21,942 nucleotides of DNA, from positions 1-21,942 of the IMG/VR virus record IMGVR_UViG_3300040801_001383; one strand, 5' to 3'. The translations under genes were made by a program, and so were the position numbers. Under the pieces are notes generated by a model that made no database searches, was not told the DNA's origin, and saw nothing but the letters and a program-made list of their open reading frames with translations. Numbering within the stretch: position 1 is the first letter of the stretch; each line of letters opens with the position of its first letter. The DNA comes from a virus. Below, piece after piece: positions 23 to 16,128 of the stretch.

Positions 23-64
23 GAGATAGGAAAAAAATAATGAAAACATTAGAAGGTGAAAAAA

Positions 65-1361: not shown

Positions 1362-2654
1362 ATGATTTATTTGAAAAATTGTCCAATTTGTGAATCTGAA
1401 TTATGGCACGATTTAGATTATTTGAGGAACAAAGAGGTATGGGTTGATAAAGATTATTTATATGAAGATCCTGTGGGTTTTAAGGTTTGCGAAGAATGCG
1501 GTTTTTTGACTTATGATTACCAACAAGATGTAGTTTTAAAACAAAGATATAATCAAAACAGCAAGTTGGTTACGGCTAATAATATTATAACTCAAAACAG
1601 GAAAAAATATTATCATGAATTATTTTTAGAAGAATTTATGAAAGATATTAAAGGTAATGTATTGGATTATGGCTGTGCGACTGGATCTTTTTTGAAATGG
1701 ATAAAAGAAAAAACTTCATGCAGTGTTTACGGTGTAGAGATAATAGAAGCATTTGTAGCTTTTGCCAGGCAAGAATATTCTGTTGACATAACTGATGACT
1801 TGCAGTTGTTTAATGACTTTGTAAAATTTAATTTTATATCATTATACAAAGTTTTGGAACATTTACAATATCCTCATACAGTTTTATTAGACTTAATAAA
1901 TAGATCGACTGATGATGCTTTATTTTACATAAGCGTTCCAGTCTGGTTTGATATGGAGTTTGATGAGACATCAGGGGAGCTTACTGATAGTTTTGAAAAA
2001 TATTATCATCTTAATCATGTGAATGTATTTACATTTAATTCTTTTCATAATCTTTTGAGGAAAGTCGGATTGAAAATAATAAAATCAAATTCTATGATGT
2101 ATGGACATACGGTATTGTGTGAAAGATGTGAACCAGATTCAAATTACGATAAAGATGATTATAGATTAGTTGAGTTAGCATTACAGAAACAAAAAAATGC
2201 TTTTGAGTTGTTTCAACAAAAGAGATTTGAGGAAGCATATAAATTATGTCCAGATTATATTGATGCATATATCATGAATTGTTTTACAAAAGAAACGATG
2301 AAAGATTTTAACGTGCAAATTTCAATTTTAGAGGAAGGGCTTGAAAATAATCCGGGTTCTACTAAATTAAGGTTGCAATTAGCACGAACTTTGTATCAAT
2401 GGGATGAGAACACGCCTGATAAGCAGTTTTATTCTAATAACATTAGGCGTGCTGAAGATATTTTGCTTGATTTGTTAAATGCAAAGCCTGGATTTGAGGA
2501 AATTTATAATATTCTGGGTATGATTGAAGCAAAATACAAAAAGAACTATAAGAAAGCAAGAGAATATTTTTCTAAAGTTTTAGAAATAAATCCTTCCAAG
2601 TATGGCGAAATTACAAACTTGGTTGGATGGCTATGGAGGGAGGCTGTAAGATGA
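1362..2654 (+). CDS. Zinc-finger class I SAM methyltransferase with C-terminal helical (TPR-like) repeats
   Basis: This 430-aa protein has a class I SAM-dependent methyltransferase core. An N-terminal zinc-binding pair (Cys7/Cys10 and Cys43/Cys46) resembles the N-terminal zinc module of sugar C-methyltransferases and related families. The SAM-binding motif I, VLDYGCATG, is at residues 100-108, an acidic GVEI strand follows, and a motif-IV-like region VLEHL is at 164-168. Residues from about 270 to 430 are alpha-helical and end in a TPR-like unit (KAREYFSKVLEINP). That tail may bind a protein or carbohydrate partner. A GGGAG ribosome site at 1348-1352 serves ATG 1362. The gene overlaps the next one by ATGA. 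With a CMP-sugar synthetase and a radical SAM enzyme behind it, a role in modifying a sugar or glycan is a reasonable inference, but the substrate cannot be read from the sequence. Confidence 0.75.
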   Translation: MIYLKNCPICESELWHDLDYLRNKEVWVDKDYLYEDPVGFKVCEECGFLTYDYQQDVVLKQRYNQNSKLVTANNIITQNRKKYYHELFLEEFMKDIKGNVLDYGCATGSFLKWIKEKTSCSVYGVEIIEAFVAFARQEYSVDITDDLQLFNDFVKFNFISLYKVLEHLQYPHTVLLDLINRSTDDALFYISVPVWFDMEFDETSGELTDSFEKYYHLNHVNVFTFNSFHNLLRKVGLKIIKSNSMMYGHTVLCERCEPDSNYDKDDYRLVELALQKQKNAFELFQQKRFEEAYKLCPDYIDAYIMNCFTKETMKDFNVQISILEEGLENNPGSTKLRLQLARTLYQWDENTPDKQFYSNNIRRAEDILLDLLNAKPGFEEIYNILGMIEAKYKKNYKKAREYFSKVLEINPSKYGEITNLVGWLWREAVR

Positions 2655-3322
2655 TTGAAGAAAAGATCGAAGAAAAGAAAGTGATAGCTTTAATTATAAT
2701 GCGTCGTGGTTCGACTGGCATAAAAAATAAATGTATGGAAAAGCTTGGCGGGAAACCGCTTGCTAAAATAATGATTGATAAATGTTTTGAAAGTAGATAT
2801 ATTGATGATGTCTATGTTTCCACTTCTGATGATGAATATAAAGAAATTGTTCGGGAGTGGGGATGTAAAGTCATAGATCGTCCTGTTGAGTTGTCAGAAT
2901 GGGATGTTCCAAATTTAAATGTTTACAAACATGCAGTTACAGTGCTTGACATAGAAGATGATGATTATGTTGTTTGTATAGATATATGCAAGCCTATGAC
3001 AACAGTTAAAATGATTGATGATGTTATATCAGTAATGCATCAAGGATCCTTTGATTCAGTTTTCACAGTTAAGCCTTATTCTTTTCAGTTAGCAGATGAT
3101 AAAAATGCAGTAGTTAGACAAAAACTTGGCAAAAAGCCTTTTATGGCTGCTTTCGGTGCCGTAAGAGCTTTTACGAAAAAAACAATAAAAGATTCCAAAC
3201 TCGGTACTTGGGGAAAGGGAGAAAAGCATAATGATATTCCCCGTATCCCGAAGTATCATTTTGATATAAACGATATAGAAGATTTTATCGCGGTTGAATA
3301 TTTGATGATGGCTGGATTTTGA
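2651..3322 (+). CDS. CMP-nonulosonate / acylneuraminate cytidylyltransferase-like (NeuA family)
   Basis: NeuA-family enzymes transfer CMP from CTP to a 2-keto acid sugar such as sialic, legionaminic or pseudaminic acid, or KDO. This 223-aa protein begins with the family's nucleotide-binding loop, IALIIMRRGSTGIKNK (residues 12-27), followed by LGGKPL. It continues with VSTSDDEY (57-64), an RP pair at 77-78, DSVFTV (135-140), and a C-terminal YHFDINDIEDF (202-212) that matches the usual DI(D/N)..EDF metal/substrate region. The segment that is normally LQPTSPLR reads CIDICKPMTT here, so substrate choice may differ. A strong GGAGGGAGG at 2635-2643 fixes ATG 2651 as the start, overlapping the methyltransferase stop as ATGA; an in-frame ATG at 2627 lacks such a site. 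No synthase (NeuB type) is in the window, so the sugar would come from the host or from genes outside it. Confidence 0.75.
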   Translation: MIEEKIEEKKVIALIIMRRGSTGIKNKCMEKLGGKPLAKIMIDKCFESRYIDDVYVSTSDDEYKEIVREWGCKVIDRPVELSEWDVPNLNVYKHAVTVLDIEDDDYVVCIDICKPMTTVKMIDDVISVMHQGSFDSVFTVKPYSFQLADDKNAVVRQKLGKKPFMAAFGAVRAFTKKTIKDSKLGTWGKGEKHNDIPRIPKYHFDINDIEDFIAVEYLMMAGF

Positions 3323-4074
3323 TGAGAAAATTAGAAATAACAACACAAGTGCCTTGTTTGAACTTTTGTAATTATTGTCCTCAAGATAATTTAATTAAAA
3401 ATTATACTGGCAATAAGTTTTTAACACTTGATAGATTTAAGCATTACTTATGTAGTATATCGCGTACTATAAATATACATTTCTCAGGATTCTCAGAACC
3501 ATTTTTGAATCGAAAGTGTATTGATATGATTGAATTTGCTTATGATGGCGGTCATAAGATTGTTGTTTACACAACAACCATGGGTATGACCAAATCTATT
3601 ATAAACAAATTATCGGCTATAGATGTAGAGTTGTACATTCATATTCCTAATGTTTCCACACATTTTAATATAGATATTTGGTCTAGGAATGTATTGGAAA
3701 TAAGCAAAAAAATGGATTTTAAATTTGTTATCGTTTTGCCGTACAATGATAAAATAAAGCAAGTTATAGAGAAAACAAATAAATCGATTATTCAGCAACC
3801 ATTGATAAACAGAGCTGGAAATTTAGATATTTTGCAGATGGCACCTTTGACAGGGAAAGTAAAATGTCGTGGCAAGAGATACAATCAGAATGTTCTATTG
3901 CCGAATGGTGATGTGGTATTATGTTGTATGGATTATTCACTACAATATAAACTAGGTAATCTTAATGAGATATCTTATGATGAATTATTCAAATCAGATG
4001 TTTACAGAGAAGTTATAAAAGGAGAACGGGATGATTTGATATGTAGAAAATGTTCAAGGGGGGTGAAAGCATAA
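3322..4074 (+). CDS. Radical SAM enzyme with SPASM-like C-terminus
   Basis: This 250-aa protein carries the CxxxCxxC signature of radical SAM enzymes (Cys12, Cys16, Cys19, in PCLNFCNYCP), which binds the 4Fe-4S cluster that cleaves SAM. A SAM-contact motif, FSGFSEPFLN, follows in place of the usual GGEP. The C-terminal third has a cysteine-rich SPASM/twitch-like arrangement: a KCRG, then LPNGDVVLCCMDY, GNLNE, YDELFKSD, and a final ICRKCSRG. This layout is typical of enzymes that act on peptides, proteins or sugars through auxiliary clusters. ATG 3322 overlaps the previous stop by one base (TGATG), so the gene is translationally coupled to the cytidylyltransferase; an in-frame TTG lies at 3319. 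The protein is short for a full SPASM enzyme. Its substrate is unknown; co-transcription suggests glycan precursor or virion-protein modification. Confidence 0.8.
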   Translation: MRKLEITTQVPCLNFCNYCPQDNLIKNYTGNKFLTLDRFKHYLCSISRTINIHFSGFSEPFLNRKCIDMIEFAYDGGHKIVVYTTTMGMTKSIINKLSAIDVELYIHIPNVSTHFNIDIWSRNVLEISKKMDFKFVIVLPYNDKIKQVIEKTNKSIIQQPLINRAGNLDILQMAPLTGKVKCRGKRYNQNVLLPNGDVVLCCMDYSLQYKLGNLNEISYDELFKSDVYREVIKGERDDLICRKCSRGVKA

Positions 4075-4075
4075 C

Positions 4076-4468
4076 ATGGAAGATGCACACGACGTATCAA
4101 ACAATAACAAATATGATGAATTGGACGATATAGATAGACGATTAATTGAATTAAAGCTGCAAACACCTAGTCTAACATATTGCAAGTTGTCTGAAATTGT
4201 AGGAGTTAATCGGTTTGTTGTGTCTCATAGAATGAAAAAAAACAAGGTAAAACAAGCTATAAATGATTTCCATAAATCAGCATTGCAAATATTGTTAGAT
4301 AGTCAAAATGAAGCTGCATTAGTATTGAGACAGCAATTGAAAAGCAAGGATGAGAAGATTGCTCAAGGGGCAGCTAAAGAGATAATAAAGGGTGTATTGA
4401 GCGATAGTGTAGATATCCCCAAGGGGCTTATGATAGAATTTGTCAATGGACACAAAAAAGAAAGTTAA
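4076..4468 (+). CDS. terS: Terminase small subunit-like DNA-binding protein
   Basis: This 130-aa protein is placed directly before, and overlaps, the large terminase gene, the standard position for the small terminase subunit that recognises phage DNA and regulates packaging. Residues about 20-60 read as a helix-turn-helix (DRRLIELKLQ, YCKLSEIVGVNRFVVSHRMK), followed by a charged, probably helical oligomerisation region. It starts one base after the radical SAM stop, with a purine-rich AAGGGGGG upstream at 4057-4064. Sequence similarity alone would be weak; the call rests on the helix-turn-helix, the size and the neighbour. Confidence 0.7.
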   Translation: MEDAHDVSNNNKYDELDDIDRRLIELKLQTPSLTYCKLSEIVGVNRFVVSHRMKKNKVKQAINDFHKSALQILLDSQNEAALVLRQQLKSKDEKIAQGAAKEIIKGVLSDSVDIPKGLMIEFVNGHKKES

Positions 4469-5675
4469 ATTCAATCTTTTGTCTCATCAATATCAATTCA
4501 CAGAATCAACAAATAGATATATAGTTAACTCTGGTGGAGTAGGCTCAGGCAAAACTTACGCTATAGTTTTAAAAACTTTGAAATTATGTATAGAGCATCC
4601 TGGAATTTTTATTTTAATTGGAGCTCAAACTTACCCTCTTTTGAGAGATACCACATTGAGAGAATTTGTTAATTTAATCCCACCTGAAATGATTAAAAGT
4701 TACAATAAAGCCAATCATCATTTTATTTTTGAAAATAATTCTGAGGTAATATTTCGGTCATTCGATGATCCCAATAAGCTTAAATCTTTGAATTTAGGAG
4801 CTTGCGGAATTGAAGAAATGTCAGATATATCTGAGGAAATATTTAAAATGTTAAGAACAAGGATGAGGCAAGACAGAATGCCTTGTTGTATATATGGGGC
4901 GACTAATCCTGGAACTTTTTCTAATTGGGTGTATAGAATATTTATAGAGAACCCTATACAGAATAGTGAAATAATTTACTCAATAAGTGCTGATAATGCA
5001 TATTTGCCTTTCGAATATTTAGAAGATTTAGAATACATGAAAGATAGTAACCCGGAATATTATGAGCGGATGGTGATGGGTAAATGGGGCGCTTTAGAAG
5101 GATTGATTTATAATTTACCGATTGAACAACGAATAACAGAATTGTTGAGGATTAAAGATTATGATAGGATAATAGCAGGATTAGATTTTGGTTTTACTCA
5201 TCCAACGGCTTTGGTTGTAATTGGGATAAGGGAAAACATTAGGCATGTCATAAGCGAAGTGTACAGGCACAAGATGACAAGCTCTGATATTATAGATATT
5301 GTAAAACAAAAAGAAAAAGAATTCAATATAGAAATAATATATTGTGATAGTTCCAGACCTGAAATAATAGAAGACTTGCAAAGAGAAGGAATACCCGCGG
5401 TTGAATCAATTAAAGATGTTTTTGACGGTATAATGTTTATTAAATCTCTAATTGGTAGTAAGAAATTATATGTTAATAAAGAATGTGTTTTCACTTTACG
5501 TGAGATGGATTCCTACATATGGGATGCGAAAAATATGATAAAGGAAGTTCCATTAAAAATTAATGATCATTGCTTAGATTCAATTCGTTATGCGTGTTAT
5601 ACTGATCATAAAAAATATGCTGGAGGTATTGAAAAATTTAATAGTGAAGAAGGCAGAGAACAATATGATTGGTAA
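4446..5675 (+). CDS. terL: Terminase large subunit (PBSX/XtmB-like packaging ATPase-nuclease)
   Basis: This motor pumps DNA into the prohead and cuts it. Counting from ATG 4446 (409 aa), the Walker A loop GGVGSGKT is at residues 30-37, the Walker B-like acidic pair is in CGIEEMSD near 121-126, and a coupling motif GATNP is near 151-155. The RuvC/RNase H-like nuclease follows, with acidic residues in AGLDFGFTHP (Asp247), IIYCDSSRPE (Asp301) and NDHCLDSIRYA (Asp378). The order and spacing resemble PBSX-type terminases. An in-frame TTG at 4440 is possible, but ATG 4446 is preferred. The start lies inside the end of the small-subunit gene, so the two are coupled. The full motif set suggests a functional enzyme. 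Confidence 0.93.
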   Translation: MDTKKKVKFNLLSHQYQFTESTNRYIVNSGGVGSGKTYAIVLKTLKLCIEHPGIFILIGAQTYPLLRDTTLREFVNLIPPEMIKSYNKANHHFIFENNSEVIFRSFDDPNKLKSLNLGACGIEEMSDISEEIFKMLRTRMRQDRMPCCIYGATNPGTFSNWVYRIFIENPIQNSEIIYSISADNAYLPFEYLEDLEYMKDSNPEYYERMVMGKWGALEGLIYNLPIEQRITELLRIKDYDRIIAGLDFGFTHPTALVVIGIRENIRHVISEVYRHKMTSSDIIDIVKQKEKEFNIEIIYCDSSRPEIIEDLQREGIPAVESIKDVFDGIMFIKSLIGSKKLYVNKECVFTLREMDSYIWDAKNMIKEVPLKINDHCLDSIRYACYTDHKKYAGGIEKFNSEEGREQYDW

Positions 5676-5680
5676 AAAGA

Positions 5681-5709
5681 TTGACAAAAAAACAATGATG
5701 TTGTATTTT
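5681..5709 (+). promoter_or_regulatory. Near-consensus sigma70-type promoter before portal gene
   Basis: A perfect -35 box TTGACA (5681-5686) is followed after exactly 17 bases by TATTTT (5704-5709), five of six matches to TATAAT. It lies in the only sizeable gap (5676-5749) between terminase and portal genes. Transcription would start near 5716. The same -35 box and spacing recur at 10800-10828. Confidence 0.65.
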
Positions 5710-5749
5710 ACGATCAAATGTGGTCAAGCAATTTGAGGTATAAGATGAT

Positions 5750-7945
5750 TTGCAAATTGGCAATATAGAAATAAGAAAGCTCAAACAAGAGGCCCCGCAA
5801 CCCAAATCACTTGGGAAAGAAATATCTTCAACTGATTCTTGTTATTTTGACGGTTATGCATTAAAGCCTTACAATCCTGCCTATTTATATCGAAAACGTG
5901 ACAGTTTTGAGCTTTATGATGACATGCGTGAAGATGATCAGATTTCATCTTTGCTGATGTTAAAAAAGCTAATTGTGTTGAATGCGGATTGGGAAATAGA
6001 ATGCGATGACGAAAATGTCAAGGAGTTTTTAGAGAAATGCTTTGATGAATATCTTGAAGGAATTTTTCTTAAAACTTTATATGATATCTTGTCTGCTATG
6101 GATTATGGATTTAGTGTATCTGAGAAGATATTTGACTATATAGAGCATGACGGCGGAACGAAGATTGTGTTGTCTAAGCTCAAGACTCGTGCACCTCACA
6201 CATTTACTCTGCCCACAGATAATCATGGTGAATTGATTGAAATAACCCAACATACGAATGGAGAGGATCTCCATCTTGACCCAGAAAAGTTTATTATTTA
6301 TTCATATAATAAAGAATTCGATAATCCTTATGGCCGGAGTGATTTGAACCGTGGGGTATATCGTGCTTATATTTCAAAAGATGCTTTAATCAAATTTTGG
6401 AATATCAGACTTGAAAGGTTTGGTATGCCAACGGCGGTTGGGAAGCTTCCTCGCGGTGCTGGTGAAGCTGAAAAAAATATATTTAAATCTATACTTAAAA
6501 ATATACAATCCAAAACATCAATAACAATGCCGGAGGATTTTCAACTTGATTTACTTGAAGCATCAAAGGGTCAAGCTGAATATGACAAAGCTATAGATAA
6601 ATACGATACTATGATAGCGAGAAAACTGCTTATACCTGATTTACTAGGTTTTTCAGGAAAGGAAACCGGTGGAGGGTCTTATGCCCTAGGTAAAGAGCAA
6701 TTTAATATATTTTACAATGTGATAGAATTTATAAGATTAGACATAGAGTCTATTGTTAATAAAGAGATAATCCAAAATTTGGTTTTTTGGAATTTTGGTA
6801 ACAAGATAGATGCTAAATTTAAGTTTAATAAAGCTGATGAAGATAGAAGAAATAAGGATATGGCCACCTGGATCGAAGCTGTTAAGACAGGTAAAGTGCC
6901 AGTCACTAACAATCACATAAACTGGCTCATGGCTTTAATAAATGCTCCTGAGATCACTGATGAAGAATTTAAGAAAATGGAAGAGGAGAAGGCCGCTTTT
7001 CGGGATGCAATTGGTAATAAAGAAAATGATAATAAGCAAGATGAGAAGAAAGACGATGGGGAAGACGAAAACGAATCAAAAGATCAGGAACAAAAGAAAA
7101 ACTTTAGTTTAGAGTTGAATCGTGAACTAAGTGTATATGAGAAAAAAATAGATTTTGCCAAGATTGCAAGAGAGACTGAGGGCATAGAAAATAAGTATAA
7201 GTCAGAATTAGCTAATGTTTTTGAATTATCTATAAATGCTCTTATGAATGATATTAAGTCCAAAAAAATAATTGAAAAGAAGCGATTTGATTTAGTCAAC
7301 AAGCTGTCATTGAAACACACGAACAAAACACACTCTTTGATTAAATCAATATTAAAAGATTCTTATAAATCCGGGGCATCATCTTTTGACAGAAGTAATT
7401 ATAAAATTGAAGTAGATATAACTGAATTGGATAATGATGATGTGGCCAAATGGGTAAATGAATATTCATTATACATAACTGGTGTAGAAGAAGAGTTTAT
7501 TCTTGGTAAAGTTAAAGCTGCACTTATTGAAGGCATTCGGGGTGGTATAGGCATCAAGGAAATGGTGGGAATGCTAGATGAAACATTAAAAGGATATAAT
7601 GTTTTGCTAGGTGCTTCGAGATTAGAGACAATAATTAGAACTATATCGTTGTCCGGTTTTAATGAAGCCAGGGCACAGCAATTTGAGAAATTTAAAGATG
7701 AAATAATAGCTTTTCAGTATAGCGCTATTTTGGATGGCAGGACATCAGAGATATGTTTAAAATTTGATAAGAATGGAAAGGGTTATTATCATCCTTCCGA
7801 GATAAGTAAGATAAACCCACCTAATCATTTTAATTGCAGATCTTTGCTTGTTCCGATTTTTAGTGATGAAGAAATGCCTGAAGTTGGCACACTTCCGTCC
7901 AATATATCACGAGCTCAAGGTAATTTTTGGAAAACAGGAGAATAA
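5750..7945 (+). CDS. Portal protein (Mu gp29/DUF935-like) fused to MuF/SPP1 gp7 head-morphogenesis domain
   Basis: This 731-aa protein appears to join two proteins that are usually separate. Residues about 40-420 resemble Mu gp29-type (DUF935) portals, the dodecameric ring through which DNA enters and leaves the head: MREDDQISSLLMLKKLIVLN, then AMDYGFSVSEKIFD, then FGMPTAVGKLPRGAGEAEK, and a GFSGKETGGGSYALG region near 300. A very charged linker (about 420-455, rich in K, D, E and N) follows. The rest ends in a MuF-type region, with RTISLSGFNEARAQQF and ILDGRTSEIC, closing in PPNHFNCRSLLVPI, the hallmark of minor head proteins. No stop or restart separates the halves. The first in-frame start is TTG 5750, with GAGGT ten bases upstream; the nearby ATG 5745 is in another frame and stops after seven codons. 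Confidence 0.87.
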   Translation: MQIGNIEIRKLKQEAPQPKSLGKEISSTDSCYFDGYALKPYNPAYLYRKRDSFELYDDMREDDQISSLLMLKKLIVLNADWEIECDDENVKEFLEKCFDEYLEGIFLKTLYDILSAMDYGFSVSEKIFDYIEHDGGTKIVLSKLKTRAPHTFTLPTDNHGELIEITQHTNGEDLHLDPEKFIIYSYNKEFDNPYGRSDLNRGVYRAYISKDALIKFWNIRLERFGMPTAVGKLPRGAGEAEKNIFKSILKNIQSKTSITMPEDFQLDLLEASKGQAEYDKAIDKYDTMIARKLLIPDLLGFSGKETGGGSYALGKEQFNIFYNVIEFIRLDIESIVNKEIIQNLVFWNFGNKIDAKFKFNKADEDRRNKDMATWIEAVKTGKVPVTNNHINWLMALINAPEITDEEFKKMEEEKAAFRDAIGNKENDNKQDEKKDDGEDENESKDQEQKKNFSLELNRELSVYEKKIDFAKIARETEGIENKYKSELANVFELSINALMNDIKSKKIIEKKRFDLVNKLSLKHTNKTHSLIKSILKDSYKSGASSFDRSNYKIEVDITELDNDDVAKWVNEYSLYITGVEEEFILGKVKAALIEGIRGGIGIKEMVGMLDETLKGYNVLLGASRLETIIRTISLSGFNEARAQQFEKFKDEIIAFQYSAILDGRTSEICLKFDKNGKGYYHPSEISKINPPNHFNCRSLLVPIFSDEEMPEVGTLPSNISRAQGNFWKTGE

Positions 7946-7946
7946 A

Positions 7947-8351
7947 ATGTCTGGATTAAGTCAAGCATTAAGATTAAATGTATTAGATCATTTTACAGGG
8001 GTGGCCGCATGGTCTGCACCAGCTGCCACATGGATTGCTTTATATTCTGCAGATGCATCAGCAACTGGAGCCGGAACAGAGCTATCTGGAAATGGATATG
8101 ATCGTGTGCAATGTAGCGCATGGAATGCAGCCGCTGCTTCTGGCACGGTAGCAGAAGCTACAAACAATGGGGCCTTATCTTTCCCTACGGCAACAGCTGG
8201 TTGGTCTACCGTAACCTGTGTCGGAGTTTACAATACACAAACAGCTGGAACATTTTTAGCTTATGCCACGATAACAGCCAAAACAATTGAAGCTAATGAT
8301 GTGGTAAGAATAGCCGACACAGCTTTGAAAATTAAATTAAAGGAAACATAA
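7947..8351 (+). CDS. Small virion protein, phage tail-fibre/Gp80-like family
   Basis: The likely start is ATG 7947, one base after the portal stop, with AGGAG at 7936-7940; the open frame extends further upstream, but only inside the portal gene. The 134-aa product is rich in Ala, Thr and Gly and predicted to be beta-stranded. It has the pattern MSGLSQALRLNVLDHFTG, W..P..TWIALYSADAS, GTELSGNGYDR, LSFPTATAGWSTVTCVGVYN, typical of a widespread small phage structural family usually annotated as tail-fibre or Gp80-like. Its place between portal and protease rather than in the tail module suggests a head-associated or adaptor role. The exact function is not established. Confidence 0.55.
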   Translation: MSGLSQALRLNVLDHFTGVAAWSAPAATWIALYSADASATGAGTELSGNGYDRVQCSAWNAAAASGTVAEATNNGALSFPTATAGWSTVTCVGVYNTQTAGTFLAYATITAKTIEANDVVRIADTALKIKLKET

Positions 8352-8356
8352 TTCAT

Positions 8357-8713: not shown

Positions 8714-9117
8714 TGGCAACAGCTAAAAAAATATGGGCTACAGCAACAACTTTATTTTCAACGAATGCTTATGGAGGTGGAGATTCAGATATCGCTGCTG
8801 ATGGGGCATGGGATTATACGAGTAACATAGACTTAGAAACTGATGGATACGAGGGTGTTCATATTGCTATAGAGTATGATTCAGCTGGAACCACAGACGA
8901 TTTCGAGGTTGGGATATTCCCCTCTTTAGACGGTAGTGCCTTTGATGATCTTCCTAAGGCTATATACAAGTTCGACAACAATAGCGGAGCTGATACTCAA
9001 GTCTCGATTAAAGTATTCGATTGGGCGAATTTAAGGCTAGGTTTAAGAACGGCTGGGACTACAGATACTTTTGACGCTAGAATAATTCATCAACGTTGGA
9101 GATGGGATGTTAGCTAA
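8713..9117 (+). CDS. Beta-rich phage structural protein, unknown family, 134 aa
   Basis: This 134-aa acidic, glycine- and aspartate-rich product has alternating polar and hydrophobic strands (GVHIAIEYDSAGTTDDFEV, TQVSIKVFDWANLRLGLRT). This resembles a jelly-roll or Ig-like surface domain. The C-terminus RIIHQRWRWDVS is aromatic. It begins in a TAATG overlap and shares its last bases with the LamG-repeat gene that follows. No enzyme motif is seen. Position in the cassette of surface-type genes suggests a virion component, perhaps head decoration or a fibre subunit. Confidence 0.55.
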   Translation: MATAKKIWATATTLFSTNAYGGGDSDIAADGAWDYTSNIDLETDGYEGVHIAIEYDSAGTTDDFEVGIFPSLDGSAFDDLPKAIYKFDNNSGADTQVSIKVFDWANLRLGLRTAGTTDTFDARIIHQRWRWDVS

Positions 9118-10501
9118 ACCGGATCATAATACTATATTCAATCCTCCAACCGGATTAGTATCATTCTTTTTGTTCAATTCTCAAGCGACCGAAGAAGAAT
9201 ACGACGTATTCGGGGGCAATGATGGAGTTGTTACAGGTGGTTCATGGGAGAGCAATGACCAGGGTTTAACATATCTTCTTGAAGATGAAGATTATATCAA
9301 TTTTGGCGGGACTGAATGGAGCATAAGCGATGAATTTACTATCTTTATGAGATTATGCTTGAGATCGAATGTAGCCGGTATTGATTACGATTCTGTCATT
9401 CAACGCGGGAGGTACTTTTTCCCTTTCGCCGTTCGGTTAACGACTGGTAATAATTTAAACTTCGCAACACGAACAACAGCAATGAATTATTTAAACAGTA
9501 CATCAACTTTATCATTAAACGAATGGTATGACTTGGTATTCACAAGAGATAAAAACGGGGTTAAAAATATTTATATAAACGGTGTAAATGACGGAACTGA
9601 TACTCAAGCGGGTGATCTTGATTTCGGTTCAGGTCAGGAAACTATTCTGGGCAAAGACTACGATGCTGGTGTTTTGTATTCAGATATTGAAATAGCGTGT
9701 TTGATAATGTTTAATAAAGCATTAACGGAAGGTCGGGTTAAATATTTTGATCCTTTTGAGATGTTTTATAGAAACAGATTCAGAGGATTTTATGTCGCTG
9801 CTGGGGGGACTATACATGACATAACTCCAATTGTTGATAATGTTTTTGAGAAAACATCCGTATTGGCAGCGATTAAAGACGTTCAAGTTGAAGCTGAATC
9901 AATTAACGAAATAACCCTACAGCTAGGGGCAATAAAAGTTTTGTCTCCTGTTATAGATAATGTTTTTGAAATTGTTGCTAGTACGCATAATATTAAATCA
10001 GTTGATGTTGTAATTGATAATACGATAGAAATTTTAACAAGTTTGACTTCGGCTGGGTTAGTTAATATCTCACCTATTATCGAATGTGTTTCAGATACAA
10101 TAATTACATTGGGTAGTTTGAAGGCCATTTCTTTTATTATAGACAATCAAAGTGAAAATGTGGCTAGTGTATATAATGAAAAATTTTTAGATTCAATTAT
10201 AGAGTCAACTTTTGAAATAAATTCAACTCTTGCTAATATTAAAAATGTATCGGTTTCTATAGATAATTCTGTAGAGTTAGCTATCGCTTTGGGGTTATTG
10301 AAAGATTTATCTGTAATAATAGAAAACAGTTTTGATATTGCAGTAACGTTAACCACTGAGCAAATCACTGGATTAATTGAGCAATTATATTTATCAACTC
10401 CTTTGGCAAAAAGCATAAATGTTAAATCAATTTTAACAAAAGAACTATTTGAAAAAGCAAGATTAACGAAAGAAATATCAACTATTACAAAATTAAACTA
10501 A
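9107..10501 (+). CDS. LamG/concanavalin-fold protein with C-terminal 20-residue repeats
   Basis: This 464-aa protein is probably an exposed binding protein. Residues about 14-215 have the pattern of a LamG-type (Laminin_G_3) sandwich: YINFGGTEWSISDEFTIFMRL, then LSLNEWYDLVFTRDKNGVKNIYI..GV, then TILGKDYD, and a closing IACLIMFNKALTEGRVKYF. Such domains often bind carbohydrate. Residues 237-418 consist of nine degenerate repeats of about 20 residues, and the last 46 residues are helical and basic. ATG 9107 lies inside the end of the previous gene. Location between portal and protease, not in the tail-tip region, favours a head-borne fibre or decoration, though a tail fibre is not excluded. Confidence 0.7.
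   Translation: MLAKPDHNTIFNPPTGLVSFFLFNSQATEEEYDVFGGNDGVVTGGSWESNDQGLTYLLEDEDYINFGGTEWSISDEFTIFMRLCLRSNVAGIDYDSVIQRGRYFFPFAVRLTTGNNLNFATRTTAMNYLNSTSTLSLNEWYDLVFTRDKNGVKNIYINGVNDGTDTQAGDLDFGSGQETILGKDYDAGVLYSDIEIACLIMFNKALTEGRVKYFDPFEMFYRNRFRGFYVAAGGTIHDITPIVDNVFEKTSVLAAIKDVQVEAESINEITLQLGAIKVLSPVIDNVFEIVASTHNIKSVDVVIDNTIEILTSLTSAGLVNISPIIECVSDTIITLGSLKAISFIIDNQSENVASVYNEKFLDSIIESTFEINSTLANIKNVSVSIDNSVELAIALGLLKDLSVIIENSFDIAVTLTTEQITGLIEQLYLSTPLAKSINVKSILTKELFEKARLTKEISTITKLN
9815..10360 (+). repeat. Nine tandem degenerate ~60-bp coding repeats
   Basis: Residues 237-418 of the LamG protein align as nine units, eight of 20 residues and one of 22. Approximate consensus: K-x-hydrophobic-S-x-hydrophobic-I-(D/E)-N-x-hydrophobic-E-hydrophobic-x-x-x-L-x-x-I. 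Examples are KVLSPVIDNVFEIVASTHNI, KNVSVSIDNSVELAIALGLL and KDLSVIIENSFDIAVTLTTE. The IDN/IEN core recurs with the period. The units are well diverged at DNA level, with only short shared stretches such as GATAATGTTTTTGA, so this is an old protein repeat and not a fresh tandem duplication. Confidence 0.8.
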
Positions 10502-10502
10502 T

Positions 10503-10796
10503 ATGTCTAAAGTATATGTAAACCAAACAAAATTAAGAATCAATTTTGATTTTGAAACGTCAATTACTGGATGTTCATCTGTAATTATAAATGTGCGTCA
10601 ACCTGGAGGATCAACCACGACGTGGACGGCGACGGTAAACGATTTGGCTAGTGGTACTGCTTATTTTGAGAATTTTACAACAACCACATTGCCAACAAAG
10701 GGGACATATTATTTGCAGCCAACCACTACTTTTTCAGATGGTACAGGCGCATCATGTGAAACTTACAAGTTAAAAGTTTACGGTGAATATGAATAA
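10503..10796 (+). CDS. Small Ig-like/baseplate-type beta protein, 97 aa
   Basis: This 97-aa product is predicted all-beta. KLRINFDFETSITGCSSVIINVRQPGGSTTTWTA is followed by AYFENFTTTTLPTKGTYYLQP and a final strand ending in the charged YKLKVYGEYE. The pattern, two strands of an early sheet, a middle W-containing strand and a G-x-Y-x-L-x-P strand near the end, resembles Ig-like domains at the N-terminus of phage upper baseplate (BppU-type) proteins. It starts two bases after the LamG-repeat gene and is the last gene before the promoter at 10800. Function beyond a structural role is not known. Confidence 0.55.
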   Translation: MSKVYVNQTKLRINFDFETSITGCSSVIINVRQPGGSTTTWTATVNDLASGTAYFENFTTTTLPTKGTYYLQPTTTFSDGTGASCETYKLKVYGEYE

Positions 10797-10799
10797 GTA

Positions 10800-10828
10800 T
10801 TGACAAGTTATAGCGTTGAATATATATT
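10800..10828 (+). promoter_or_regulatory. Near-consensus sigma70-type promoter before capsid operon
   Basis: A perfect TTGACA (10800-10805), a 17-base spacer and TATATT (10823-10828, five of six to TATAAT) sit in the gap 10797-10882. Transcription would start near 10835, giving a leader of about 48 bases before the protease start. The same architecture occurs at 5681-5709. It would drive protease, scaffold, decoration and major capsid genes, which are needed in large amounts. Confidence 0.7.
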
Positions 10829-10852
10829 GAATTATATTGAATTTTTTTGTAT

Positions 10853-10885
10853 TGTTGTCAAACAACCATAAAGGTTTTGACAATG
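10853..10885 (+). promoter_or_regulatory. Leader hairpin over the protease/scaffold ribosome site and start codon
   Basis: TTGTCAAA (10855-10862) is perfectly complementary to TTTGACAA (10876-10883). Two G-U pairs extend the stem to 10 bp, reaching all of ATG 10883-10885. The 13-base loop holds the ribosome site AAAGG (10870-10874). A shorter, competing hairpin, GTTGT-CAA-ACAAC (10854-10866), uses the same 5' arm and would free the start codon. The pair looks like a translational switch, but only the base pairing is seen. Confidence 0.45.
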
Positions 10886-12040
10886 CCTCTTCCAATACCT
10901 CACGAAGATGAATCGAAAGATGATTTCGTTTCTCGTTGCATGAGTGACGATATCCTACTAGAAGAATACCCAGACGAAAATCAACGATTAGCTATTTGCC
11001 ATTCTCAATTTGAAAAAACTTTTGAAGAAAGAAAAGTTTATGATATTGATAATGTCGAAATATTTAAAGCAGGCATATGGAATGGCCATTCATTTAGTGA
11101 AAAAGATATTGATGATATTGTAAAAAGTTTTAATGATATCGGAAGCGAAATAAAACCTTATATTAAATTAGGCCATGATGATAAACAGAAACTACTTCAA
11201 AAAGACGGATATCCGTCTGCTGGATGGATAGTATCACTTAGGAAAAATGGCGGGAAATTATTAGCATCGTTTAGGGGCATACCTGAGAAAATATATAAAC
11301 TTATTAAAAAAAAGGCTTATGGTCGTTTTAGTGCTGAAATTTATCATAATTTAACTATTGGGAATAAGAAATATCCTTATGTATTAAAAGCGGTATCATT
11401 GCTGGGAGCGGACACTCCGGCCGTTGAGGGGCTGGATGATTTTATAGATTTATATACTGAAAATAATTATAGATATGATAAAATAATACTATATGACGAG
11501 GTATACAACATGGGGGAACTTGAAGAACTCCAAAAGAAAGTAGCTCAAATGGCTAATGATATGGATGGTCTCCAAAAGGCCAATTCGGAGCTTATTAAAG
11601 AAAATGATGTTATTAAAAATGAAAACATGGAATTAAATCGTAAAGCTGAAGAGCAAATAAGATTAAACAGAGAAGCCGAAATTCAAAGATTTATGAATGA
11701 CATGGTAAAAGAAGGAAAGGTTTTGCCAAGTCAAGTCGATTATTTTGTTGCATTGTGTATGAATAGCGATGTTTTAACATTTACTAATAGTCAAAATCAA
11801 AAAATTGAAGGCAGTTCTCTTGATCTTGTAAAACAAATTATTGAAAATAATGATGTTAATAAATTTTCTGAGAATAGTGAAAAGGGTAAATCCAAAGACA
11901 TGAAGTATTCAGATATGGATGATGAAGAAAAGGACGAATATCTCGATAAAGAAATCAAGAAATATTGTCGTGAAAATAAAGTAGATTATATCGATGCTTA
12001 CCAGATTGTCCTTGAAAAACTAGAAGAGGAGGGCGAATAA
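10883..12040 (+). CDS. Prohead protease (Mu gpI-like) with scaffold domain
   Basis: The 385-aa product starts with MPLPIPHEDESKDDFVSRCM and QRLAICHSQFEK, a short domain often found at the start of phage prohead proteases. Residues about 45-200 resemble Mu gpI: an opening strand VEIFKAGIWNG, then IKPYIKLGHDDKQK with the conserved GH (likely catalytic His), YPSAGWIVSL, KKAYGRFSAEIYHN with the RxSAE motif around the candidate Ser, and LKAVSLLGADTPAVEGL. From about residue 210 on it is coiled-coil and very charged, as in scaffolds. ATG 10883 has AAAGG seven bases upstream; the longer in-frame TTG 10847 has none. In Mu-like heads this protein directs coat assembly, is processed, and is removed during maturation. 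Confidence 0.83.
   Translation: MPLPIPHEDESKDDFVSRCMSDDILLEEYPDENQRLAICHSQFEKTFEERKVYDIDNVEIFKAGIWNGHSFSEKDIDDIVKSFNDIGSEIKPYIKLGHDDKQKLLQKDGYPSAGWIVSLRKNGGKLLASFRGIPEKIYKLIKKKAYGRFSAEIYHNLTIGNKKYPYVLKAVSLLGADTPAVEGLDDFIDLYTENNYRYDKIILYDEVYNMGELEELQKKVAQMANDMDGLQKANSELIKENDVIKNENMELNRKAEEQIRLNREAEIQRFMNDMVKEGKVLPSQVDYFVALCMNSDVLTFTNSQNQKIEGSSLDLVKQIIENNDVNKFSENSEKGKSKDMKYSDMDDEEKDEYLDKEIKKYCRENKVDYIDAYQIVLEKLEEEGE
11510..12040 (+). CDS. Nested in-frame scaffold protein (Mu gpZ / lambda Nu3-like), proposed
   Basis: Inside the protease gene and in the same frame, ATG 11510 is preceded by GAGGT (11498-11502) with eight bases between GAGG and the start. It is the best internal ribosome site in the gene and lies exactly at the junction between the protease domain and the coiled-coil region (MGELEELQKKVAQMANDMDG onward). 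The 176-aa product would be a free scaffold protein lacking the protease, as with Mu gpZ and lambda Nu3. Translation from it is inferred, not shown. Confidence 0.55.
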   Translation: MGELEELQKKVAQMANDMDGLQKANSELIKENDVIKNENMELNRKAEEQIRLNREAEIQRFMNDMVKEGKVLPSQVDYFVALCMNSDVLTFTNSQNQKIEGSSLDLVKQIIENNDVNKFSENSEKGKSKDMKYSDMDDEEKDEYLDKEIKKYCRENKVDYIDAYQIVLEKLEEEGE

Positions 12041-12041
12041 G

Positions 12042-12551
12042 ATGGCTATACATGGAATTGGAAAAGAATATGACGTCACATTTAAGTGTGATGGGAATAT
12101 GAAAACTACTACAAGTCAATATAAAGTAGTCGCAATGGTGCCAGGAACAACCGGTAATGCTGACTGGACAGTCCAACTATGCGGTTATACTGGAACGGCT
12201 GGCAATGCAACAGCTTCTTCGCTTGTGCCGATTGGGATAAATCAATCTTATTTAAGCTCTTCTTCTGAGTCATGTGACGTTCGTTTGTTTGGTCTCAGCA
12301 AGGCGACTTGTGCAGAATCTATAACTGCGGGTGAATTTGTAAAAGCTGCCTATGGTGCAGCTGCTTCTAGCACGGTTATTCACGGAAATATCGCAGCTAT
12401 AGACAGTGGTAAAACAAGTACTGTTTTTGCTGATACAACGGTAACGTCATCCCATGGAGTTTGCTTAGGTCGAGCCATGGAAGATGGTTCAACTGGAACG
12501 GTTATAACAATTTTCGTCAATCCGTCATTGTACGAATCGACATTTATGTAA
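12042..12551 (+). CDS. Putative capsid decoration/cement protein
   Basis: This 169-aa Ala/Ser/Thr-rich beta protein is encoded between scaffold and major capsid, the usual place of head decoration (lambda gpD-like or DUF2190-type) proteins that lock the expanded shell. Seen in the sequence are YKVVAMVPGTTGNADWTVQLCGYTG, CAESITAGEFVKAAYG and a closing SHGVCLGRAMEDGSTGTVITIFV strand pair. These fit the cement pattern of variable loops around an entering 'introduce a value, exit with G-x-A-x-E/D' region. GGAGGG just upstream supports ATG 12042, one base after the protease stop. Family assignment is tentative. Confidence 0.6.
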   Translation: MAIHGIGKEYDVTFKCDGNMKTTTSQYKVVAMVPGTTGNADWTVQLCGYTGTAGNATASSLVPIGINQSYLSSSSESCDVRLFGLSKATCAESITAGEFVKAAYGAAASSTVIHGNIAAIDSGKTSTVFADTTVTSSHGVCLGRAMEDGSTGTVITIFVNPSLYESTFM

Positions 12552-12563
12552 AAAGGAGGGCTT

Positions 12564-13484
12564 ATGCCTAGACAGGGTAGTGTAAGAGTTGTAAAGACTC
12601 TATCTAATATAGCATTGCAATACAAAAACTCTGCGTATATTTTCCAAGATATACTTAAAGATGTTTTTGTAGAACATGATACAGACAAGTACTGGGTTTT
12701 AAATTCAAGTTTTAAGTTGCCTGAAACGATTAGGGCAAATGGAACACCGTCTAAAATGCATACTTGGGATGCTTCAACATCGAGTTATACAGTTAATGAG
12801 CATGCTTTAAAAGATGTTATAACAGAAAATGATCGTGATAACTCAGATTTAAATCTTGACCAATTAACCACAGAAGAATTGACTGATAAAATTCTTCTCA
12901 GGCAAGAATATGAAGCACATGAGTTGTTGTTTACAATAACTACGTTCTCAAATTATGCAGGGACTCTAACAGGTGATAACCTCTGGGGGACTACATCTTC
13001 TGCTCCAGTATTAAATATGCTTTCAGCATCGAGTTACATTGAAAGATATTCAGGTAAAACACCCAACACGGTTGTCATGGGAAGGTCTGTACATGATGTA
13101 CTCAAGGAAAGTTCTGTTATTTATGGCAGAATCCAATATGTTGAAAGACAAATTGTAACCAAGGAGCTTTTAGCAGCGTTATTTGATGTAGATAATGTTT
13201 ATGTTGGATCGGCTGTTATTGATGCAACAAAGGAAGGTGAAACTGCAACAATGACTTACCTATGGGGTGGTGATGTGCTATTGGCTTATTTCGACCCGAA
13301 TCCAGGAGGAAGAAAGGTCACGGCTGCATGTCAATTTAGAGTAAAGAAAAAGGGATTGCCATATCGTGTCAAGAAGTGGTATGAAGAAGATATCGAGGGT
13401 GACTTTATAGAAGTACAAACTAAATGTAAACCCAAGGCGGTAGCGACGTCGTGTGGCTATCTTCTGAAAGGAGTTAATGGATAA
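12564..13484 (+). CDS. Major capsid protein (HK97-fold, Mu gpT-like class)
   Basis: The 306-aa length, position after scaffold and decoration genes, and sequence pattern all indicate the major head protein. Near the N-terminus, TLSNIALQYKNSAYIFQDI and VEHDTDKYWVLN are typical of HK97-like capsid proteins of this type, followed by a helix-rich middle (TTEELTDKILLRQEYEAHEL). The P-domain segment is TPNTVVMGRSVHDVLKESS, then VTKELLAALFDVDNVYVGSA, and LWGGDVLLAYFDPNP with a C-terminal strand near RVKKWYEEDIEGDFIEVQ. A strong AAGGAGGG precedes ATG 12564, consistent with high expression. Its stop overlaps the next start as TAATG. Confidence 0.85.
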   Translation: MPRQGSVRVVKTLSNIALQYKNSAYIFQDILKDVFVEHDTDKYWVLNSSFKLPETIRANGTPSKMHTWDASTSSYTVNEHALKDVITENDRDNSDLNLDQLTTEELTDKILLRQEYEAHELLFTITTFSNYAGTLTGDNLWGTTSSAPVLNMLSASSYIERYSGKTPNTVVMGRSVHDVLKESSVIYGRIQYVERQIVTKELLAALFDVDNVYVGSAVIDATKEGETATMTYLWGGDVLLAYFDPNPGGRKVTAACQFRVKKKGLPYRVKKWYEEDIEGDFIEVQTKCKPKAVATSCGYLLKGVNG

Positions 13485-13714
13485 TGTCAGAACAAATGGT
13501 AGTTGTTAAAGCAGATCCAGAACAAATGGAGCGTCACAAAAAAGGCTTTGAGGTAACTAGAGAAAAGCAGATTACAAAATATGCAAATGACGGCAAAAAA
13601 AAGATCATTAAAGAAATTCATTTCGCTAATGGGATCACAAAAAGTGTTCTGATTGGTTTAATGAAAAATAAAAGAGTCATATTTGATCGAGGGATCGACT
13701 TTAAGAAAATATGA
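13484..13714 (+). CDS. Small basic phage protein of unknown function, 76 aa
   Basis: This 76-aa, lysine-rich product starts in a TAATG overlap with the capsid gene and overlaps the next gene by ATGA, so it is coupled to both. Visible are MVVVKADPEQMERHKKGFEV and a middle KKKIIKEIHFANGITKSVLIG. No known motif is recognised. By place, between major capsid and connector, it might be a head-completion factor or a regulator of the capsid/connector step. Confidence 0.6.
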   Translation: MSEQMVVVKADPEQMERHKKGFEVTREKQITKYANDGKKKIIKEIHFANGITKSVLIGLMKNKRVIFDRGIDFKKI

Positions 13715-14193
13715 GTTATTCAACTGCTACATCAATTTTAGCTATTCTGCCCGGTCTTCCGGCGACAACTTCGGCTGATGGCTATTCTAGCACAGTCTCA
13801 CTAATAGAGTCTCACATTGTCCGGGCAGATAGTTTTATTGATGCTAAATGTTCAAGAAGGTATAGTTTGCCTTTCAGTCCTGTTCCGCCTTTCATTCGTA
13901 CAATTAGCGAAGATATTTCGTCATGGTTTGTGTACAGGTCTGAATTTTCAACAGATATTAAAACAGATTTTGAGAACAGGTTTGAAGATGCGGTGGAATG
14001 GCTTAACCAAATCCAAGCCGGTGAATTAAATCTTGTTGATACATCTGGTAGTTTGGTGGCTGAGCTGTCTACAACTTCAGCTGGATTTTTGGATTCAAAT
14101 ACAAAAGATTATCAACCGTTTTTTGATGAAGATGAACCAGTATCCTGGAAGATAGACGCTGATAAAAAAGACGGCATAGCGGATAATAGATGA
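13711..14193 (+). CDS. Head-tail connector (Mu gp36/DUF1320-like)
   Basis: This 160-aa protein has the pattern of gp36-type head-completion proteins that attach to the portal and prepare it for the tail. SLIESHIVRADSFIDAKCSRRYSLPFSPVPPFIRTISEDIS matches the alternating 'A..eID..l..RY.LP....P..l......ia' pattern. This is followed by a helix (FENRFEDAVEWLNQIQAGELNL). An acidic tail (DEDEPVSWKIDADKKDG) follows. It follows the major capsid and small basic genes and overlaps both neighbours by ATGA, consistent with the connector block. Confidence 0.75.
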   Translation: MSYSTATSILAILPGLPATTSADGYSSTVSLIESHIVRADSFIDAKCSRRYSLPFSPVPPFIRTISEDISSWFVYRSEFSTDIKTDFENRFEDAVEWLNQIQAGELNLVDTSGSLVAELSTTSAGFLDSNTKDYQPFFDEDEPVSWKIDADKKDGIADNR

Positions 14194-14603
14194 TAGCAGT
14201 TAAACTTGATTTAGGAAAAGTTGAAAAGAAATTCAAAAAGCTAGAGCAAAAGGCTTTAAGGCCTAAACGTACAATCGATATTATAGCTGCCAAGGCGTGG
14301 AGAAATGTATTAGATCATTTCAAAACACAATCTACACCCGAAGGAAAGAAATGGCAAGGATGGAAACATAAAGGAAAGAGGGTAAGGGTTAGACCTTATG
14401 GCCGTGGTGGAAGCATGTTATTGCAAGATACGGGATATTTAAGAATGTCTACTCGTTTTAAAACTGTTAAAAGTGATGCTATAGTATATACTAAGACAAA
14501 ATATGCTGATTATCAAAATAAAATGCGAAAATTTATGGGTATAGACAAAGCTACAAGGAAAAAACTAAAAAGTGTTTTGCAAAAAGGATTATTTAGATCA
14601 TGA
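14190..14603 (+). CDS. Virion morphogenesis protein (Mu gpG/P2 gpS-like tail completion)
   Basis: This 137-aa, strongly basic product carries the family's pattern: an N-terminal helical region, then EGKKWQGWKHKGKRV, then LLQDTGYLRMSTRF (the 'L..TG.L..S' motif), YADYQNK and a closing FMGIDKATRKKLKSVL. Family members help finish the tail end that joins the head. The gene overlaps its neighbours by ATGA on both sides and follows the gp36-like connector, as in Mu-related heads. The usual HQ.G histidine-glycine near the 'Y.D' strand is replaced by YQNK. Confidence 0.75.
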   Translation: MIAVKLDLGKVEKKFKKLEQKALRPKRTIDIIAAKAWRNVLDHFKTQSTPEGKKWQGWKHKGKRVRVRPYGRGGSMLLQDTGYLRMSTRFKTVKSDAIVYTKTKYADYQNKMRKFMGIDKATRKKLKSVLQKGLFRS

Positions 14604-15097
14604 ATTTAGTATCCATATTGGGAAGTATTGAGAATTTGATTATTAAAAACAATACGGCAACTTCTGATTATGACGTTAGCGATGGATTGCAAAACAGAGT
14701 CAAGAAAACCCATAAAGGCGTTTCAGGAATGCATGAAACTTTTCCAGTTATTAAATCTCAACAGCCAGTTATTTTTATTGAAATCGACTCTACAAGTGAT
14801 AATATTTCACAGATTGGTAATTCCGCAAGACGAAATGTTGAATTAAATTTTAATATTGTTTCAATTATGGATTATGGAATGGGCGTATCTTTGGAAGGTG
14901 AATCAAGAGAAAAACTATCTTTAGAATCGATAAGACTTTCTCAAAATATTGAAACATTGTTTAGAAACAATATTACAATATCAAATACTGTAGATTGGTG
15001 CAGAGTAGAAGCTGTAACCTACTCAACAAATATTGAAGACACAGCATATCAGAATATTTCCATAATTCCTGTTTATGCTGAATTATTGACAACTTAA
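14600..15097 (+). CDS. Probable tail terminator/neck protein
   Basis: The 165-aa product lies between the gpG-like protein and the tail tube, where the tail terminator that caps the tube is normally encoded. It reads FPVIKSQQPVIFIEIDSTS, then NSARRNVELNFNIVSIMDYG, a helical EKLSLESIRLSQNIETLF, then VDWCRVEAVTYST and a final NISIIPVYAELLTT strand. A middle pair of strands around a helix and a closing strand fits the alpha/beta plan of terminator proteins (for example lambda gpU-like), but no single diagnostic residue is seen. It starts in an ATGA overlap. Confidence 0.6.
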   Translation: MNLVSILGSIENLIIKNNTATSDYDVSDGLQNRVKKTHKGVSGMHETFPVIKSQQPVIFIEIDSTSDNISQIGNSARRNVELNFNIVSIMDYGMGVSLEGESREKLSLESIRLSQNIETLFRNNITISNTVDWCRVEAVTYSTNIEDTAYQNISIIPVYAELLTT

Positions 15098-15105
15098 GAG
15101 GTAAT

Positions 15106-16128
15106 ATGTTATCACAACAAGAAGTATTAGAACAATCAAGAAACGCATTTAATCAATCACATGAAGTATGGGTTAAGCATTGTGAAGAGAATGGAAGATT
15201 GTATCGTGAACAAGGAAATTCATTTCAAGATATAGCATTCCAGGGGTTAGGCAAAACTTTATTATGTGTAGCTTATGGCCCTAGTACTGAAAAATATATG
15301 GATACTATTACTAAGTATAAAGACAATGTAGATGTGGCTTGTGTTGATAAAGCATTTGGCAAATTATACGAAAATGGAATAAAAGCTAAATATGTTTTTC
15401 TTGCTGATGCAGGGATAAGTTATGAGCAGTGGTGCGAACCATTTTTGGATTATACTGAAGATATGGTTTTGTTATCAAATATAAATGCTAATCCGAAATG
15501 GACAAAAAACTGGAAAGGTAAAGTTATATTTTATGTCAATAAAGATAATATAAATAGCGAAAAGATATATTCTAAAGTATCAGGTTGTAATGAACTCATT
15601 CCGGCATCAAGTAACGTGGGAAACGCGGTTGTTATTTTTGCTGAACAAGTTTTAAAATATGATCAATATCTGTTGGTAGGTTATGACTACTGCTGGCGTG
15701 ATGATGAAAATTATTATGCTTATCATGATAATAATAAAAGATATTGGATGAAGCATTATGTTAGTATCGATCAATTTGGTAATCTTATAAATACGAGTGG
15801 TAATTTATTGTTTTCGGCAAGATGGTTGTCTGATTATGTTAAAGCGAAATTGCCGCATGTGAGAATATTTAATTGTAGTGGCTCAGGCATACTTAATCTA
15901 GGTTCTGCAAACTTAGAAGTTAAATTATCTAAGGCGGGACAAAGGAAATTAACAGATAGAGAGAAACAGCTTTTTATATTAAACAGAAGCAAGTCGATCA
16001 TGGTTAATCCTGAGGATGGTAATAATAAACTACAAGAAGTTTTAAGAGATAATAATGTTGTGAATGTTATAGTAAATTTTATAAGTGATGAAACTATAAA
16101 ATTCATGGAGGCTCAATGGGCAAATTAA
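15106..16128 (+). CDS. DUF115 / MptE-like, Maf-type glycosyltransferase-like protein
   Basis: This 340-aa protein has the plan of the DUF115/MptE-like family, which includes the motility accessory factors (Maf) that add nonulosonic acids to flagellin, and MptE of pterin synthesis. An N-terminal helical region precedes a Rossmann-like core. A short GPS loop is at 58-60, then VDVACVDKAFGKLYENGIK (75-93) and YVFLADAG (96-103). The second half has SSNVGNAVVIFAEQVL (168-183) with LLVGYDYCW (189-197) and a nearby His207. A closing IFNCSGSGIL (254-263) is the family's usual end of the core. The place is odd: between the tail-terminator and tail-tube genes, after GAGGT at 15098. With the NeuA-like gene upstream it suggests glycosylation of a virion protein. 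The donor and acceptor are not known. Confidence 0.65.
   Translation: MLSQQEVLEQSRNAFNQSHEVWVKHCEENGRLYREQGNSFQDIAFQGLGKTLLCVAYGPSTEKYMDTITKYKDNVDVACVDKAFGKLYENGIKAKYVFLADAGISYEQWCEPFLDYTEDMVLLSNINANPKWTKNWKGKVIFYVNKDNINSEKIYSKVSGCNELIPASSNVGNAVVIFAEQVLKYDQYLLVGYDYCWRDDENYYAYHDNNKRYWMKHYVSIDQFGNLINTSGNLLFSARWLSDYVKAKLPHVRIFNCSGSGILNLGSANLEVKLSKAGQRKLTDREKQLFILNRSKSIMVNPEDGNNKLQEVLRDNNVVNVIVNFISDETIKFMEAQWAN

Follow-up and report, generated by a model that had tools for sequence, protein, structure and literature searches.

The window analysed here, 21,942 bp long, is the complete virus record IMGVR_UViG_3300040801_001383, a tailed-phage fragment and not a full genome, with genes for a terminase, a Mu-type portal with a MuF domain, a protease, a capsid protein, gp36-like and neck proteins, a tail tube and a tape measure. 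Among these genes lie one for a NeuA-like cytidylyltransferase (2651-3322) and one for a DUF115/MptE-like protein (15106-16128; hereafter DUF115), and we propose, with a probability of roughly 0.6, that they belong to a lineage-wide phage pathway for a cytidine monophosphate (CMP)-ulosonate that feeds a Maf-like transferase, which probably modifies a virion protein. The original prediction for this DNA had placed a CMP-sugar synthetase and a DUF115/MptE-like core in these two reading frames, and had paired sugar activation with transfer in a single phage, the transferase lying beside virion genes. That idea is largely right: members of the lineage almost always carry both gene sets, and because cytidylyltransferase and ulosonate-synthase genes occur lineage-wide, the pairing is more than a chance feature of a single contig. 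The exception is the origin of the sugar acid. The prediction had the phage activating a host-made sugar, and although the activation gene stands, the sugar is probably phage-made, since the relatives encode a synthase of either the 3-deoxy-D-arabino-heptulosonate 7-phosphate (DAHP) type or the NeuB type and seem to produce their own sugar acid.

Recognition of the lineage required alignments; queried with single sequences, viral contigs and deposited phages gave no match to DUF115 or, bar one Moritella record, to the NeuA-like protein. A search with the window terminase identified three relatives, in two of which the identical slot is occupied by a DUF115 gene, and alignment-based searches place the gene at 63 viral loci and at only three loci in bacterial or archaeal genome contigs, the metagenome-assembled genomes (MAGs) concerned being from unrelated phyla. 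Wherever the flanks are present there is one gene order: gp36-like, neck, tail terminator, DUF115, usually an open reading frame (ORF) of ~70 aa, tail tube and tape measure. The mean pairwise identity of DUF115 is 39%, the same as that of the major capsid protein and above those of the tail tube, portal and tape measure, and among its neighbours its distances correlate most highly with those of the capsid (0.80) and tail tube (0.79). Given this constant slot and capsid-like conservation, DUF115 is a fixed, vertically inherited core gene of the tail operon, neither accessory nor cargo, a point on which the original prediction needs amending. No relative lacking DUF115 where the region is present was found with a closer capsid set (used in place of a 13-member capsid alignment that was too diverse for searching), and there is thus no negative control within the lineage. 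A 47-kb MAG contig (L069; JANQEB010000025.1) carries the same phage operon plus a DAHP-type synthase and a cytidylyltransferase (G037:C14), and three Maf-like genes lie on other contigs of the same MAG.

The genes for making and activating the sugar were sought in 37 whole records, 36 viral and one MAG, and CTP_transf_3 is present in 20 of them, 19 viral. Eighteen of these 19 viral records also encode a synthase, which is of the DAHP type in 14 and of the NeuB type in four, and never both; the NeuB-type genes to which the original prediction had looked are therefore present, with DAHP-type genes instead in the larger number. Two further records (G009 and G020) have a DAHP-type synthase near a contig end without CTP_transf_3, such that 20 of 21 relatives have a synthase in all. 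The 15 viral records with neither gene are fragments of 11.8-26.9 kb, and most of those mapped begin at or near the portal gene, although not each was verified. The cluster is sited near the terminase and portal genes, and most of the clusters that are complete have in common the order radical S-adenosylmethionine (SAM) protein, NeuA::GT2 fusion, in some cases an epimerase, a small ORF (h97), synthase and methyltransferase. Upstream of the terminase in L002 and L004, for example, there are a radical SAM gene, a cytidylyltransferase-GT2 fusion, an NAD epimerase/dehydratase, a small ORF, a DAHP-synthase-family gene and a methyltransferase-TPR gene. Fusion of the cytidylyltransferase to a GT2 domain of teichuronic acid/exopolysaccharide (EPS) type, which the original prediction did not foresee, is seen in most relatives (L002 3006-4310; L004 4842-6176; L071-L090), and in most of those with a complete cluster a radical SAM homologue adjoins the cytidylyltransferase. 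The cluster order persists even with another terminase type, as in L075 (3299) and L079 (11914), where identity to the window terminase is 18-20%, and DUF115 is kept there too. The ORF h97 (L002 5147-5440 and its homologues) is a conserved ~100-aa reading frame just upstream of the synthase and has no Pfam match.

The DAHP-type synthases score below the cut-offs of curated aromatic DAHP synthase models (114 versus 335 bits in one, and 170-262 bits in others). Of their metal ligands, His and Asp are kept throughout and Cys and Glu in nearly all; the Cys region is missing from a truncated copy in L004, and L089 and L090 differ at other places. The NeuB-type synthases match models of N-acetylneuraminate and pseudaminate synthases, again under the cut-off. 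A reverse search with the phage-type synthase identified seven loci, all in the same lineage, two of them new and ending before the DUF115 position. Interchange of two synthase families unrelated in sequence, while activation and transfer do not change, would be expected from a shared need for a 2-keto-3-deoxy sugar acid. As the original prediction recognised, no synthase is seen in the window, which is the whole of a fragmentary record; the record is truncated on the left at a TnpB gene, and the synthase of the relatives sits just upstream of the methyltransferase. The TnpB gene is within or beside the sugar-cluster region, at the place where relatives have synthase and epimerase genes. The neighbouring methyltransferase with TPR and the SPASM radical SAM gene are also as predicted, and the start of the latter overlaps the stop codon of the NeuA-like gene (TGATG).

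The NeuA-like protein matches CTP_transf_3 (PF02348) with an E value of 1.8e-18 and 67.6 bits against a cut-off of 22.6, contains both end motifs (N-terminal RRGSTGIKNK and C-terminal FDINDIEDF), and matches the CMP-Neu5Ac synthetases 6ifd and 1qwj in the PDB. We prefer the start at 2651, as originally predicted, over that at 2627 given by the ORF tool because a GGAGGG ribosome site precedes the ATG at 2651. The top NCBIfam model is PseF (TIGR03584; 2e-17), but the score of 63.6 bits is far from the equivalog cut-off of 205.7, so the sugar cannot be named.

DUF115 has an MptE-like PF01973 match (E 8.5e-17; 61.9 bits against a gathering cut-off of 34.6), shared by all 52 aligned members at E values up to 0.01, and includes all four of the predicted elements GPS, SSNVGNAVV, LLVGYDY and NCSGSG. 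An AF2 model from the 52-sequence alignment has a pLDDT of 96.2 and a pTM of 0.91; one from a three-sequence alignment was unusable (pLDDT 43.6). The top Foldseek match of the model in the PDB is the Maf of Magnetospirillum (2.3e-11), which is also the top PDB match of the DUF115 sequence profile. In VIA-align comparisons Maf (5mu5) is the closest structure, with a Z of 22.9 and a root-mean-square deviation of 3.2 over 247 residues (model residues 12-294), followed by the MptE kinase (HPPK 8sd5; Z 17.1, residues 2-258) and then by SteA (Z 11), human ST8SiaIII (Z 10) and CstII (Z 9.5), the GT29 and GT42 sialyltransferases having Z scores of 8-10. The fold search proposed with the original prediction thus ranks Maf first. 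Nineteen columns are invariant in the 52 sequences, mostly polar or aromatic, and include D81, K82, D101, D147, S169, N170, N173, Y204, K211, S231, N233 and S237.

Several observations weigh against our proposal. The alignment covers only Maf residues 238-528, the catalytic domain, and the 340-aa phage protein has neither the Rossmann-like N-terminal domain of Maf nor its three-domain architecture; the full-length PseD/Maf model NF050051 scores 36.6 bits against a cut-off of 670, and FlagModPseD of NCBIfam (E 2e-9) is also under its cut-off. MptE is likewise a strong fold match. The GPS element is not strictly kept: several members differ in the residues that precede the Ser, and SPE or GAE is found in L004 and L020. 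The invariant Asp-Lys of the phage proteins stands where Mafs of the host bin (CVNTA and CVGTA) have Asn, Gly or Ser, and is nearer to the Asp of MptE. The fused GT2 domain might be the actual transferase, G033 has DUF115 and a cytidylyltransferase with neither synthase type detected, and co-variation of DUF115 with its neighbours picked out no acceptor. That DUF115 works like a Maf is nonetheless a reading we hold somewhat above even odds; in view of the missing N-terminal domain and the full-length model score, it is a stronger claim than that DUF115 is a Maf.

From the observed gene content, co-occurrence, fold, fixed position with synteny, and conservation, we infer the following order of reactions, with a CMP-sugar as the donor for DUF115 and a virion protein as its acceptor. 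A synthase of the DAHP or NeuB type, present in the relatives and lying beyond the cut end of the window, would condense phosphoenolpyruvate and an aldose to a 2-keto-3-deoxy sugar acid, which the epimerase, radical SAM and methyltransferase products would probably tailor. The NeuA-like enzyme would then charge the sugar acid with CMP, and DUF115, as a stand-alone Maf catalytic domain, would move the sugar onto a protein encoded with it in the tail operon; a tail or virion protein is the likeliest recipient, and the tail tube is the immediate candidate acceptor by gene position. A Clostridium Maf accepts both CMP-Neu5Ac and CMP-3-deoxy-D-manno-octulosonate (CMP-KDO) (PMC11339370), which makes a DAHP/KDO-type ulosonate a plausible donor. 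More tentatively, and at a little short of even odds, a whole lineage of uncultured siphophage-like viruses may have made this glycosylation central to virion construction: a phage-made CMP-ulosonate, supplied by interchangeable synthases, would be attached by the tail-operon Maf-like enzyme to the tail tube or to some other protein of the virion, in much the way that flagellin is modified by Maf before it is assembled. Maf enzymes modify flagellin prior to its export.

Other targets for the sugar merit consideration. The phage could transfer it onto the host surface (S-layer, flagellin, teichoic acid or a lipid glycan) and so block superinfection or change a receptor; receptor-altering glycosyltransferases are common in phages, and the teichuronic/EPS-type GT2 domain fused to the cytidylyltransferase in most relatives belongs to enzymes that usually build surface glycans. 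We regard this as unlikely, because DUF115 is fixed in the late tail operon and conserved like the capsid protein, unlike the variable receptor-conversion genes, and the ORFs identified in the mapped clusters, which are not all of those there, include none of a membrane-anchored flippase type. The ~10-12 kb between the cluster and DUF115, the transferase domain that the cluster has of its own, and the lack of a detected synthase in G033 could also reflect two separate systems, one modifying glycans or DNA with its GT2 and the other, DUF115, having an unrelated role in tail assembly. The two gene sets co-occur across deeply divergent members, however, and stay together in L075 and L079 where the terminase type has been exchanged, and the closest fold to DUF115 is a CMP-ulosonate transferase, all of which make such a separation rather improbable.

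DUF115 itself could have a different activity, or none. The Pfam name, the second-best fold match (8sd5) and the Asp of the DKA motif are those expected of an MptE-type 6-hydroxymethylpterin diphosphokinase, and the fold alone is compatible with a pyrophosphokinase; the gene context makes that role unlikely, since GTP cyclohydrolase I, the sole pterin marker tested, is found in one of 21 relatives (G034:C1:28658-29185), 20 of which have a synthase. A tail-operon slot also makes little sense for pterin metabolism, and Maf matches better over more of the chain, so that an MptE-only identity, raised with the original prediction as a way in which it might fail, is disfavoured and to us very improbable. 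We give equally little credence to DUF115 as a former enzyme that is now purely a structural or chaperone tail protein: its constant slot would suit such a role, but the invariant residues listed above resemble a ligand pocket, and the tail-chaperone slot is already taken by another ORF.

No verified deposited phage was matched by either gene set. In 50,697 deposited phage records there was no tblastn match for three DUF115 members, the only NeuA match was a mis-filed Moritella contig and no verified phage, and no record matched the NeuA::GT2 fusion at 80% query coverage. For the synthase there were matches in 11 deposited records, all short or unannotated, several of which may be bacterial DNA. 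CTP_transf_3 is in none of ten IMG/VR records with unrelated terminases (Fisher p ~0.003 for 0/10 versus 20/37, with a small control of mostly short fragments), and the loci examined in them have no DUF115. Homologues of DUF115 from uncultured phages are present in BFVD, labelled MptE-like, and a literature search found no functional work on DUF115 or MptE-like proteins in phages.

Among known systems, phage DUF115 most resembles the Maf (motility associated factor; PF01973) flagellin glycosyltransferases, sharing the fold of the catalytic domain, the Pfam family and partner CMP-ulosonate genes, although the window itself has only the cytidylyltransferase. The GPS, ADAG, SS-V, GxD and Y elements are common to phage DUF115 and to the Mafs of the MAG holding the L069 contig (79 genomes from the phylum to which that MAG belongs were searched solely to obtain Maf sequences). 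DUF115 departs from the Mafs in lying in a tail operon and not at a flagellin locus, and in having Asp-Lys in place of the Asn-Thr or Gly-Thr of the compared Mafs. With MptE it shares the Pfam family and fold core in a weaker and shorter match. The GT42 (CstII) and GT29 sialyltransferases also use CMP-sugar donors, but their sequence likeness to DUF115 is weak, with Pfam CST-I matched by only one of the 52 members. An actinobacteriophage-encoded glycosyltransferase is said, in work by Freeman et al. from 2023 that PMC13313380 cites, to glycosylate virions; we know of no CMP-ulosonate or Maf-type enzyme in that system. The phage cluster also parallels the bacterial nonulosonate pathways NeuB/NeuA, PseI/PseF and B. 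subtilis spsE/spsF (PMC7439481) in that an ulosonate synthase adjoins a cytidylyltransferase, and differs from them in its mostly DAHP-type synthases, the usual GT2 fusion, and its radical SAM/SPASM and methyltransferase-TPR genes.

Flagella, spores and capsules are the best-known sites of sialic-acid-like sugars. Should the proposed pathway operate, phages that make and activate the sugar themselves, and that keep the gene of a Maf-like transferase in a fixed place next to the tail tube gene, would bring this chemistry to virions, with possible consequences for host recognition, immune evasion or tail stability. The pathway would also re-annotate a family of uncultured-phage proteins labelled "6-hydroxymethylpterin diphosphokinase MptE-like" and offer a compact Maf-type enzyme for glyco-engineering.

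Table. Coordinates and predicted products of the sugar-cluster and tail-operon genes in the window.
Feature	Coordinates	Strand	Evidence and remarks
TnpB (IS605 OrfB type)	56..1306	+	Cas12f1-like_TNB 1e-24, OrfB_IS605; at cut left end of window
SAM methyltransferase with C-terminal TPR	1362..2654	+	Methyltransf_23 5.1e-17 and TPR; final sugar-cluster gene in relatives, conserved downstream of synthase
Stand-alone CMP-sugar (nonulosonate/ulosonate) synthetase, NeuA/PseF/KdsB-like	2651..3322	+	PF02348 1.8e-18; PDB matches 6ifd, 1qwj
Radical SAM protein with SPASM domain	3322..4074	+	SPASM 6.9e-11; spiro-SPASM TIGR04321 5.9e-11, under cut-off
Tail terminator-like gene	14600..15097	+	Directly before DUF115, after Mu gp36-like and neck genes; conserved order
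Maf/DUF115-like putative CMP-ulosonate protein transferase	15106..16128	+	PF01973 8.5e-17; fold match Maf 5mu5; fixed tail-operon gene
67-aa ORF between DUF115 and tail tube	16116..16319	+	Iterated hidden Markov model search; present in most, not all, relatives
Tail tube protein	16306..17343	+	Phage_tube_2 1.7e-26; candidate acceptor by position
ORF in tail-chaperone slot	17355-17666		Between tail tube and tape measure

Finally, the head operon of the window includes a gene (9107-10501) for a protein with a Laminin-G/ConA-like lectin domain, possibly a carbohydrate-binding decoration.

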